Below, in pieces: positions 52,922-58,979 of a stretch of 64,000 nt of DNA (the stretch's first letter is position 1; the number at the start of each line of letters is the position of its first letter). This DNA comes from Straminergon stramineum. Taxonomy: Eukaryota; Streptophyta; Bryopsida; Hypnales; Calliergonaceae. A program made the position numbers and the translations under genes. The stretch spans positions 20,403,001 to 20,467,000 of the forward strand of contig OY987265.1 of the NCBI GenBank assembly GCA_963920665.1, in the 5' to 3' direction. Below the pieces are notes generated by a model. The model did no database searches and was not told where the DNA came from. It saw nothing but the letters and a program-made list of their open reading frames with translations.

Positions 52922-54933
52922 ATGAGAGAGTGTCTTTCCATCCACGTGGGCCAAGCAGGAATTCAAATCGGAAATGCCTGTTGGGAGCTTTTCTGTCTGG
53001 AGCATGGTATCCAGGTCTATGCACATGAGGCTTCCGATCACGGCTGACTGATTTTTGAGTTGTATAAGAAAGCATAACAATCACGTGCTTCTTGTTAAAA
53101 TAATAAATCTCGAATGGTTTGAATAACTCCTGAAAGTACTTAATGTTTCGTGTTGTGTCCATTGTGATGGTGCAGCCGGATGGGCAGATGCCCAGTGACA
53201 AGACGGTGGGCGGAGGCGACGACGCCTTCAACACGTTCTTCAGTGAAACGGGAGCAGGCAAGCACGTCCCGCGCTGCGTGTTTTTGGACTTGGAGCCTAC
53301 AGTGATCGACGAGGTGCGCACGGGCACGTATAGACAGCTCTTCCACCCCGAGCAGCTCATCAGTGGCAAGGAAGATGCTGCCAACAACTTCGCTCGCGGA
53401 CACTATACCAGTACGAATGCTCAATTCTCCACCCCCGTGAATTCGTTCCATTGGTTCACATGCATCTGTGCAAGCATATTATGTAAAAGAAAATATTAGC
53501 AATGGGTGAAAGATTTAAATCAGGTGCTGCCAGAAGTGAATTGACATTCACGATCATTCAAATGCTGCTCCGACACTTTTAATCAAGAGGATGAATTAAT
53601 AGCGTTGCATCATAGCTAGCTGACACGGTGCTCAATTGTGCACGATTGTCTGTCTTTTGCGCAGTTGGGAAGGAGATCGTGGATCTGGCTCTGGACAGAA
53701 TCCGAAAGCTGGCAGACATGTGCACGGGTCTCCAAGGGTTCATGGTGTACCACGCCGTGGGTGGAGGCACCGGCTCTGGCCTTGGCTCGTTGCTGCTGGA
53801 GAGGCTGTCGGTGGATTACGGCAAGAAGGCGAAGCTTTCGATGTGCGTCTTCCCCAGCCCACAAGTGTCAGGCGCTGTGGTGGAGCCCTACAACAGCATC
53901 CTGTCTTGCCACGGCCTACTTGAGCATACTGAAGTGTCGGTGATGTACGACAACGAAGCCATCTACGATATTTGCCGGAGGAATCTCGATATTGAGCGGC
54001 CCACGTACACAAACTTGAACCGGCTCATCACCCAGGTACTGCACTCGTCACCATGGCCCAATTTATACTCGTCAGCAGCCAGCATTCAGTTTGCTCGCGA
54101 CGGCAATTTGAAGCTGCAATGCCCAACTGTCATAGTGCTAAACGTAACAGGCATTCTTGTGGTCCGATTGTTCAGTAGGACAGGCTACAGTGTCAAGTAC
54201 TTACTTCAACACAATATTGGTATGTATGATTCGGAAGTTGATAAAGCTCAGAGCTGCAAATGAAAATGTATTGCAGGTGATGTCTTCTTTGACGGCGTCC
54301 TTGCGATTCGATGGCGCGCTGAACATGGACCTTACCAACTTCCAGACGAACCTGGTGCCGTACCCGCGCATCCACTTCATGCTGTCCTCGTACGCCCCCG
54401 TGATCTCGGCGGAGAAGGCCTACCACGAGCAGCTGTCAGTGTCGGAGCTGAGCAACAGCGTGTTCGAGCCCTCCAGCATGATGGCCAAGTGCGACCCTCG
54501 CCACGGCAAGTACATCGCTTGCGCCATGATGTACCGTGGCGACGTGGTGCCCAAGGACGTGAACGCTTCCGTGGGCACCATCAAGACCAAGCGCACCATC
54601 CAGTTCGTGGACTGGTGCCCCACGGGCTTCAAGGTGGGCATCAACTACCAGCCGCCCACGGTGGTGCCGGGCGGCGACCTGGCCAAAGTGCAGCGCGCGG
54701 TGTGCATGATCGCCAACAGCACGGCCGTGGCGGAGGTGTTTTCTCGCTTGGACCACAAATTCGACCTCATGTACGCCAAGCGTGCATTTGTGCACTGGTA
54801 TGTCGGAGAGGGGATGGAGGAGGGCGAGTTCTCGGAGGCGCGCGAGGACCTGGCCGCATTGGAGAAGGACTACGAGGAGGTCGGCGCCGATTCCACCGAG
54901 GGAGACGGGGAGGACGAGGGCGAGGAGTACTAG
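52922..54933 (+). CDS. TUA: Alpha-tubulin, variant with Asn254
   Basis: Four exons, 52922-53014, 53176-53410, 53665-54035 and 54277-54933, give 1,356 nt and 451 residues, the normal length. All introns are GT-AG. It is alpha- not beta-tubulin: it starts MREC, has SDKT with Lys40, the GGGTGSG loop at 142-148, GPI-free alpha signatures such as [12 protein letters not shown], and ends EEY for detyrosination. It pairs with beta-tubulin to form microtubules. The alpha residue that triggers GTP hydrolysis in the neighbouring beta subunit, Glu254, is Asn here ([11 protein letters not shown]); Asp251 is kept. Further differences from standard plant copies cluster in 136-200 ([36 protein letters not shown]). 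It converges on a near-identical gene at 56853-58979. No lesion is present. Confidence 0.96.
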
Positions 54934-55326
54934 GCAGTAGGAAAACTGGAGGCCCGACGCCATCCCTGCCATTCATTCCATTTAAGTGTTCTCTCTCTTT
55001 CTCTTTCTTGCTTTCTTCTCCGAGCTAGGACGACCTGGCTGGCTGACTGGCTGGGGACGTACTTCGGCATTCTCGCTTCGTACATTCTTTTCCAGACTTT
55101 GATAAGATTCGGACAAGTTTTGTAAATTCTCCCCCCGACTCCCACGTAGCACTGAATGCTCGTACTCCTCATTTTTGCAATTCAGAGGGTACCTCAGTGC
55201 CTGCCAGTAGATCACAGATGTCCGGAATCCATTCCAGAGGAGTGAGGAGCTAGGAACGTATTATTATTGATGGACCATGTGTGAGCTTTGAGTTCAGTTG
55301 AAACTCTTCTGTAAAGAGACAAGTAG
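54271..55326 (+). repeat. Left arm of a 1,056-bp inverted repeat
   Basis: It runs from the last bases of tubulin intron 3 (TTGCAG) through exon 4 and about 390 bases of 3' sequence. By eye it is identical to the reverse complement of 56460-57515. Identity stops abruptly in the intron on one side and at GAGACAAGTAG on the other. Confidence 0.9.
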
Positions 55327-56459: not shown

Positions 56460-57515
56460 CTACTTGTCTCTTTACAGAAGAGTTTCAACTGAACTCAAAG
56501 CTCACACATGGTCCATCAATAATAATACGTTCCTAGCTCCTCACTCCTCTGGAATGGATTCCGGACATCTGTGATCTACTGGCAGGCACTGAGGTACCCT
56601 CTGAATTGCAAAAATGAGGAGTACGAGCATTCAGTGCTACGTGGGAGTCGGGGGGAGAATTTACAAAACTTGTCCGAATCTTATCAAAGTCTGGAAAAGA
56701 ATGTACGAAGCGAGAATGCCGAAGTACGTCCCCAGCCAGTCAGCCAGCCAGGTCGTCCTAGCTCGGAGAAGAAAGCAAGAAAGAGAAAGAGAGAGAACAC
56801 TTAAATGGAATGAATGGCAGGGATGGCGTCGGGCCTCCAGTTTTCCTACTGCCTAGTACTCCTCGCCCTCGTCCTCCCCGTCTCCCTCGGTGGAATCGGC
56901 GCCGACCTCCTCGTAGTCCTTCTCCAATGCGGCCAGGTCCTCGCGCGCCTCCGAGAACTCGCCCTCCTCCATCCCCTCTCCGACATACCAGTGCACAAAT
57001 GCACGCTTGGCGTACATGAGGTCGAATTTGTGGTCCAAGCGAGAAAACACCTCCGCCACGGCCGTGCTGTTGGCGATCATGCACACCGCGCGCTGCACTT
57101 TGGCCAGGTCGCCGCCCGGCACCACCGTGGGCGGCTGGTAGTTGATGCCCACCTTGAAGCCCGTGGGGCACCAGTCCACGAACTGGATGGTGCGCTTGGT
57201 CTTGATGGTGCCCACGGAAGCGTTCACGTCCTTGGGCACCACGTCGCCACGGTACATCATGGCGCAAGCGATGTACTTGCCGTGGCGAGGGTCGCACTTG
57301 GCCATCATGCTGGAGGGCTCGAACACGCTGTTGCTCAGCTCCGACACTGACAGCTGCTCGTGGTAGGCCTTCTCCGCCGAGATCACGGGGGCGTACGAGG
57401 ACAGCATGAAGTGGATGCGCGGGTACGGCACCAGGTTCGTCTGGAAGTTGGTAAGGTCCATGTTCAGCGCGCCATCGAATCGCAAGGACGCCGTCAAAGA
57501 AGACATCACCTGCAA
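56460..57515 (-). repeat. Right arm of the 1,056-bp inverted repeat
   Basis: Reverse complement of 54271-55326, covering exon 4 and the 3' flank of the right tubulin gene. Confidence 0.9.
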
Positions 57516-58979
57516 CACACTACCAGCCGGTCAGGTGCACAATTTGTTTCACACGTATTAAGCTTAATCATACATTTATATACATTTGCAGCCTTGAGCG
57601 ATCCTTGAAATCACGACCCGAATCTCACATAATTGCTTCCAAGTATGTACACATGTCGACCAGGAAACCAGAAAGTGTCTACATTGCTTTGGAGAATCAA
57701 TTATACCGAGATGTAGCATGAATGAGTCCACTACATGTATCACGGTTTTGTGGAAGGCAATGACAGCCTCATACAGCCATGGCGAACAAGAATTGTCTGC
57801 TCAGAAGCATGAATTAGGCCAAATGGTGACGAGCAGTACCTGGGTGATGAGCCGGTTCAAGTTTGTGTACGTGGGCCGCTCAATATCGAGATTCCTCCGG
57901 CAAATATCGTAGATGGCTTCGTTGTCGTACATCACCGACACTTCAGTGTGCTCCAGAAGGCCATGGCAAGACAGGACACTATTGTAGGGCTCCACCACTG
58001 CACCCGACACTTGTGGGCTGGGGAAGACGCACATCGAAAGCTTCGCCTTCTTGCCGTAATCCACCGACAGCCTCTCCAGCAGCAACGAGCCAAGGCCAGA
58101 GCCGGTGCCTCCACCCACGGCGTGGTACACCATGAACCCCTGGAGACCCGTGCACATGTCTGCCAGTTTTCGGATTCTGTCCAGAGCCAGATCCACGATC
58201 TCCTTCCCAACTGCGCAATTGGGCACTGTGAGAGTGGTATTACAGTACTTTCATTTCATACTCTTGATAACAATTTCGGAACAGCATTTGAATGATGGTG
58301 AATGTTGTTTTACTTCTGCTAGCAGCTGATTAATTTATTTAACCCTTGCTTATAATTTATTGTGAATGTTATGCGTGCAGAGATGCATGTGAACCAATGG
58401 AACGAATTCACGTGGGTAGAGAAAGGAGGATTCAATTCGATCGTACTGGTGTAGTGTCCGCGAGCGAAGTTGTTGGCGGCATCTTCCTTGCCACTGATGA
58501 GCTGCTCGGGGTGGAAGAGCTGTCTATACGTGCCCGTGCGCACCTCGTCGATCACGGTGGGCTCCAAGTCCAGAAACACGCAGCGCGGGACGTGCTTGCC
58601 TGCTCCCGTTTCACTGAAGAACGTGTTGAAGGCATCGTCGCCTCCGCCCACCGTCTTGTCACTGGGCATTTGCCCGTCCGGCTGCACCATCAGAACATTT
58701 GGACTCAAAAAAATCTGTTGTTTAATTTCACCTTGGACACAAAATTGGACTCATAATATTCTGTTCACATATTTTTGGATGAAGCAGGCGTTTCACAGTA
58801 ATTGGTTTACTTATCATGGTTAAGTGGCCAGACATTATTGAATTTTTTTGAAGCATTGAACATAAGTTTCAGCAGATACTACGTACCTGGATACCATGCT
58901 CGAGACAGAAAAGCTCCCAGCAAGCATTGCCTACTTGGATTCCTGCTTGACCCACGTGGATGGAAAGGCACTCTCTCAT
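56853..58979 (-). CDS. TUA: Alpha-tubulin, variant with Asn254 (convergent copy)
   Basis: Exons on the minus strand are 58979-58887, 58681-58447, 58210-57840 and 57509-56853. Exon lengths (93, 235, 371, 657) and phases equal those of the left gene, and the product is again 451 residues. Only two residues differ from the left copy: Val for Ile at 16 and Val for Ile at 188. Asn254, Lys40, Asp251 and the EEY tail are shared. Exon 4 and the 3' flank are identical to the left copy. Exons 2 and 3 carry mostly silent differences, about ten of those in exon 3 packed into the stretch around codons 178-197, and the introns are largely diverged. This suggests an old duplication with recent gene conversion. 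A TATA box lies about 175 bases upstream of the ATG. Confidence 0.96.

Follow-up and report, generated by a model that had tools for sequence, protein, structure and literature searches.

Straminergon stramineum encodes two alpha-tubulin genes, here called A and B, in the 64,000 nucleotides that were analysed (the window; positions 20,403,001 to 20,467,000 of contig OY987265.1, assembly GCA_963920665.1), and both encode an asparagine instead of the catalytic glutamate at residue 254. The window is part of contig C3 of a genome assembly of 326 Mb in 59 contigs. The genes are arranged tail to tail, A on the forward and B on the reverse strand, and each is composed of four exons with 451 codons, GT-AG introns, and no internal stop codons. 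In positions of the window, the gene models are:

52922..53014, forward strand: gene A exon 1 (codons 1-31), GT/AG borders
53176..53410, forward strand: gene A exon 2
53665..54035, forward strand: gene A exon 3
54277..54933, forward strand: gene A exon 4, including the stop codon
54337..54339, forward strand: gene A codon 254, AAC = Asn
58887..58979, reverse strand: gene B exon 1
58447..58681, reverse strand: gene B exon 2
57840..58210, reverse strand: gene B exon 3
56853..57509, reverse strand: gene B exon 4, including the stop codon
57447..57449, reverse strand: gene B codon 254, AAC = Asn

Both proteins match the tubulin domain (PF00091), and the closest solved structure is that of an alpha-tubulin (E-value 2.9e-285 across residues 1-451). 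They differ from each other only at residues 16 and 188, where isoleucine and valine are exchanged. From the catalytic pair of alpha-tubulins at T7/H8, Asp251 and Glu254, only Asp251 is present; A, B, and three other loci of the genome have Asn254. The window proteins are alpha-tubulins by descent that lack the catalytic Glu254. A first-pass annotation of the window had read Asn254 (AAC) next to an unchanged Asp251 in both copies, and the joined exons confirm this.

Asn254 genes in the alpha-tubulin family

Further tubulin loci were found by six-frame searches and modelled with a spliced-alignment script that was verified on gene A. Including the window pair, at least 15 alpha-tubulin loci are present (13 others were modelled), 11 of them intact and four damaged. 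Six beta-tubulin loci and one FtsZ gene (C2:17660) were also classified, and all these family counts are lower bounds. Aligning the genome's alpha-tubulins, a check that the first-pass annotation had proposed, places Asn254 in five of the 11 intact genes found (window A, window B, C2:33372, C5:19441, and C2:8906) and Glu254 in the other six (two on C1, one on C7, one on C9, and two on C10). Three of the damaged copies have Glu254 (C3:30525 and, by tblastn, C5:14219 and C1:14919). The fourth, at C1:31553, contains four stop codons and has lysine at 254, as does beta-tubulin (PMC13394414).

The Asn254 genes are spread over three contigs, have three or four introns each, and encode proteins of 450-451 residues with an MREC start. 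All five are free of stop codons and have GT-AG borders, and thus do not classify as pseudogenes. Codon 254 is AAC in four of them and AAT in C5:19441. Between loci, pairs of Asn254 genes have synonymous rates (dS) of 0.92-1.06 and ratios of non-synonymous to synonymous rates (dN/dS) of 0.018-0.028 (NG86, the only rates used; the dS of pairs with C5:19441 is too high to be computed). Because the codon varies only silently in highly constrained, diverged genes, Asn254 does not look like the product of drift or error. The first-pass annotation had claimed clear constraint on the protein and had named a relaxed dN/dS, in combination with a lack of any transcript, as an outcome that would speak against its reading; at about 0.02 the ratio is not relaxed. 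All six intact Glu254 genes have GAG at codon 254, from which AAC or AAT are two base changes away, and an intermediate with Asp or Lys is therefore implied.

The window pair is probably an inverted duplication

Exon 4 of both genes and its 3' flank lie in the arms of an inverted repeat:

54267..55326, forward strand: left arm (exon 4 and 3' flank of gene A), 1,060 nt, 100% identical to the right arm
56460..57519, reverse strand: right arm (exon 4 and 3' flank of gene B), 1,060 nt, 100% identical to the left arm

The coding part of exon 4 accordingly shows no difference between A and B. Outside the repeat, identity is 90-97% in stretches over exons 1-3 and 75-80% in parts of intron 2. Of the 699 positions in exons 1-3, 29 are different, and only two residues change as a result (dN 0.0037, dS 0.19). 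This pattern points to an inverted duplication that was partly homogenised by gene conversion, the converted tract including codon 254. Because codon 254 is part of the identical repeat, A and B are not independent witnesses. The earlier argument that a random error is unlikely because two copies share the change thus fails as independent evidence, but its conclusion stands, because the three further loci and proteins from other records also carry Asn254.

Two other alpha-tubulin pairs of the genome are inverted. The C10 pair (C10:12105 and C10:12121, Glu254) shows 100% identity across 3,454 nt, and the C1 pair shows 99.5% across 2,070 nt and 94.9% across 572 nt. The genome contains three inverted alpha-tubulin pairs, the window pair included, and seems to be prone to homogenised inverted duplicates.

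Asn254 proteins form a single moss clade

A clustered database of about 5.8 billion proteins was searched three times, with 7,960, 7,977, and 5,964 matches, and the best 120 of each comprised 343 distinct proteins, to which the following counts refer. The third search scored only 40 residues around position 254, and Asn254 proteins with similar surroundings should therefore outrank Glu254 proteins; among the matches listed, few proteins rank above the seven with Asn254, most of them with two copies of the stretch. Because the database is clustered at 90% identity, Asn254 members may hide inside Glu254 clusters; they may also occur in poorly sampled mosses, and Asn254 proteins with other surroundings could escape.

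Asn254 is found in seven of the 343 proteins (P0077, P0092, P0105, P0106, P0154, P0239, and P0240). P0077 and P0092 are from Ceratodon purpureus (locus tags 5G and 9G), the species with the closest named relatives of gene A among the matches listed (98% identity); the listed Glu254 relatives from plants are 83-90% identical to gene A. P0106 equals gene B over 414 aligned columns and is without two residues (GT) near position 81. The fish fragment P0232 has Asp254 in two repeats, five proteins do not contain the motif, and all remaining occurrences of the motif have Glu254.

In a tree of 33 rows the ten Asn254 proteins included form one clade (support 100/99), and the same clade with the same support is obtained when residue 254 is masked and two damaged rows are dropped (31 rows). 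Of the 12 Asn254 sequences, P0239 and P0240 were too short for the tree, and several of the ten are near-copies. The nearest Glu254 relatives of the clade are C7:17551, P0127 from Ceratodon, and P0128, the sole protein among the matches listed that is named as Physcomitrium patens, the moss most used in the laboratory. Because the Asn254 proteins cluster together even with residue 254 masked, Asn254 appears, on this sampling, to have had a single origin before the split of Ceratodon and the window species, and to have been retained through duplications.

P0127 and P0128 look like a second divergent type of moss alpha-tubulin, with an altered Lys40 region and Glu254.

Other residues changed or kept in the clade

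Compared to 21 Glu254 rows, the clade has non-overlapping residues at positions 199, 204, 250, 254, 313, 316, and 353, among them D199E, L204Y, V250M, M313I, and C316A. Conservation was judged from the 110 of the 343 proteins that have suitable length, a sample that also includes proteins from outside the plants; 106 of these have Glu254. Within the 106, Asp199 and Met313 are present in all, and Val250 and Cys316 in 105 each, and the clade has altered all four. Tyr204 and Val353 also occur in Glu254 proteins (nine and 23 of the 106, respectively). Five of the seven differing positions are found within 35 residues (242-260, 312-320, and 349-355); the binomial probability of 5e-5 is merely a guide because this set was chosen after the positions were known. 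The clade keeps features required of a lattice subunit, namely Asp251, Lys40, the MREC start, the C-terminal tyrosine, and the sampled nucleotide-site residues Asp69, Glu71, Asp98, and Asn101.

Val250 is part of the T7 loop and its amide bonds to Glu69 of beta-tubulin in the pironetin complex; Cys316 is located on strand S8 beside the channel formed by H7, H8, S5, and T7 (PMC4931326). Pironetin binds covalently to Cys316 (PMC4931326), and because this target is alanine in the clade, the isotype may be less sensitive to the compound.

No compensating beta-tubulin was seen among the six beta-tubulin loci, three of which encode one identical protein; by eye they look ordinary.

Upstream regions and expression

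Three candidate elements were located upstream of the window pair:

52575..52584, forward strand: GTTACAACCG, 347 bp before the ATG of gene A, candidate element
52543..52553, forward strand: CGCCAGATTCG, upstream of gene A, candidate element
59221..59230, reverse strand: GTTACAACCG, 251 bp before the ATG of gene B, candidate element

The upstream comparison (600 bp each) included the five Asn254 genes and four of the six Glu254 genes, one of each near-identical pair having been left out. GTTRCAACCG, a motif picked by eye, is present in four of the five Asn254 regions and in none of the four Glu254 regions, and CGCCAGATTCG is found within one mismatch in four of the five Asn254 regions. In total, 29 11-nt windows are matched in at least three of the five Asn254 regions, compared to 0-3 in 20 first-order Markov shuffles. 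Common descent would explain the shared elements as well as shared control would, although their survival through such divergence hints at a co-regulated gene set. RRCSGTT, the motif of the sperm regulator DUO1 (PMC6290024), is not a clear mark of the Asn254 genes: within 800 bp, and with both strands searched and overlapping matches on the two strands tallied separately, it has 0, 2, 6, 1, and 1 matches in these genes versus 0.4-0.7 expected, and 0-3 versus 0.3-0.9 expected in the six Glu254 genes. These counts speak neither for nor against a role in sperm.

P0105 and P0106 are intron-free across exons 2-4 and are located on contigs no longer than 1,928 and 1,976 nt, respectively, a form that mRNA would also have. 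Both begin only at Met36, and intron-poor alpha-tubulin genes exist (C1).

Asn254 is the replacement used in engineered human tubulin

When a dimer joins the lattice, Asp251 and Glu254 of its alpha-tubulin complete the active site on beta-tubulin (PMC12186500). Human E254N was made as a conservative change (LaFrance et al. 2022, PMC8764682). According to high-performance liquid chromatography the mutant kept its GTP, and it grew without catastrophes; its microtubules grew slower than wild type, had an expanded lattice with positive twist, and showed patches differing in EB3 binding (PMC8764682). Nucleation of E254N was like that of wild type while growth was slower (Table 1 of PMC11893814), and mixtures of E254Q and E254N tubulin polymerised into stable mosaic microtubules (PMC11893814). 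The moss clade shares with this mutant the single exchange of Glu254 to Asn and the kept Asp251, and the 21-residue mutant peptide (PMC11893814) differs from that of the window only at position 250 (Met in the window, Val in human). However, the human protein is a laboratory mutant and otherwise wild type, whereas the paralogue of the moss occurs naturally, is conserved, and has further changes.

There is precedent for a natural alpha-tubulin without Glu254. The alpha3-tubulin of Toxoplasma and relatives lacks both Asp251 and Glu254, and slowed or absent GTPase-activating protein (GAP) activity has been suggested by the authors (PMC10056924). It is likewise a natural paralogue but has no Asp251, has His or Gln at 254, and mostly contains an N-terminal MPREI insert and a long tail (PMC10056924). 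The moss clade with Asp251, Asn254, MREC start, and ordinary tail does not belong to this type. Human TUBA4A variants have also lost Glu254, but these are rare heterozygous changes and not a fixed isotype (PMC12262762). Ordinary plant Glu254 alpha-tubulins have the same domains and similar lengths as the moss proteins and differ in combining Glu254 with Asp199, Val250, Met313, and Cys316 (105-106 of the 106 Glu254 proteins sampled, which include non-plant ones). In the openly licensed PubMed Central literature, mostly surveyed by listing, no alpha-tubulin of plants or mosses was seen to be mentioned as lacking Glu254.

A proposed natural non-hydrolysing isotype and its alternatives

We favour, at a probability of roughly 60%, that the Asn254 proteins constitute a subfamily of moss alpha-tubulins with a fixed Asn in place of Glu254, and that this subfamily would act as a built-in stabiliser by leaving GTP unhydrolysed in the lattice. 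Asn254 alpha-tubulin would pair with the ordinary beta-tubulins of the genome and enter microtubules, where its residue 254 would complete the active site on the beta-tubulin of the neighbouring dimer, which would then retain its GTP. In mixtures with Glu254 dimers, the wall would contain GTP-bound sites and the cap would be longer, both in proportion to the share of Asn254 dimers, and this might render the microtubules catastrophe-resistant. Expression would probably be confined to cells or arrays needing stability. The first-pass annotation had proposed a natural slow or non-hydrolysing isotype, and this idea gained from the five genes with dN/dS of about 0.02, their single clade, and the identity with the human mutant that kept GTP. 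It lost the argument from two copies, because of their identical tract, and the loss of GTPase activity is expected by analogy to the identical human mutation. The special array that it named (flagellar, spindle, or cortical) would be a guess.

Several observations count against this reading. Activity could be restored or altered by the additional substitutions around T7. Dividing cells would be expected to suffer from carrying a dead subunit in several copies, because E254A is described as lethal to budding yeast (PMC7018511) and replacements of Glu254 in TUBA4A (to A, Q, K, and G) were reported in four severe early myopathy cases (preprint PMC12262762). Human E254N also has slower growth than wild type (PMC8764682). 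Because the listed Physcomitrium protein P0128 has Glu254, Asn254 may not be shared by all mosses whose sperm is flagellated. Restricted expression or a low dose would reconcile the isotype with the harm seen elsewhere.

The strongest alternative, which we still regard as unlikely, is a compensated isotype, in which the changes in and behind T7 (V250M, M313I, C316A, D199E, and L204Y) rebuild a working or slow site so that dynamics are merely tuned. It would account for the alteration of otherwise near-invariant sites in the clade, and a graded outcome is possible given that Asp254 renders human tubulin slow rather than dead (PMC7018511). However, residue 254 of the clade is not acidic, human tubulin lost hydrolysis through Asn254 alone (PMC8764682), and Tyr204 and Val353 are not restricted to the clade. 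Less probable still is a subfunction that does not involve the ordinary lattice: the isotype might act as a dimer for capping, nucleation, or storage, or work in a rare cell type, and its hydrolysis state would be incidental. The unimpaired nucleation and slower growth of human E254N (PMC11893814) would fit such a role, but the sampled nucleotide-site residues are kept and constraint extends along the whole length of the gene. Decay of gene copies, with a recent loss of constraint letting Glu254 drift, seems very improbable: the genome does hold four damaged alpha-tubulin copies, one with Lys254, but the five Asn254 genes are intact and strongly constrained and the same Asn is conserved in proteins of other records and species, so that the pseudogene reading was rejected. 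An error of sequencing or assembly, or contamination, is the least probable and was likewise rejected, since assembly could have copied one error within the identical tract of A and B but not into three other, synonymously diverged loci, one with the other Asn codon, nor into separate Ceratodon records.

Beyond the non-hydrolysing isotype itself, it is conceivable, at slightly less than even odds in our view, that at least one moss lineage has evolved, once, a hydrolysis-dead alpha-tubulin family that is doped into microtubules and writes lasting GTP islands. Stability would then be set by isotype dosage in addition to microtubule-associated proteins (MAPs) and modification, and the changes at other near-invariant sites around T7 might make the dead subunit tolerable.

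Other features of the window

A U6 spliceosomal RNA gene is located at 59901-60003 on the reverse strand, about 0.9 kb upstream of gene B (102.1 bits, gathering threshold 44). Pieces of a Copia-type long terminal repeat (LTR) retrotransposon extend over 22114-25716 on the forward strand, with gag (PF14223), integrase (PF00665), and reverse transcriptase (PF07727) in three open frames. The open frame at 11102-11752 on the forward strand has a short match to an FAD-binding domain (PF01494, residues 85-129) and is perhaps an exon of a larger gene.

Meaning for microtubule biology

Dynamic instability is driven by GTP hydrolysis, which is aided by Glu254 of alpha-tubulin. At this very residue the moss replacement equals the laboratory tool, and a moss lineage retains several copies of the mutant that serves as GTP-cap mimic. 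If the isotype is indeed non-hydrolysing, it would provide a natural system to ask whether cells stabilise microtubules by islands of unhydrolysed GTP, how they tolerate a dead subunit, and in which arrays one is needed.

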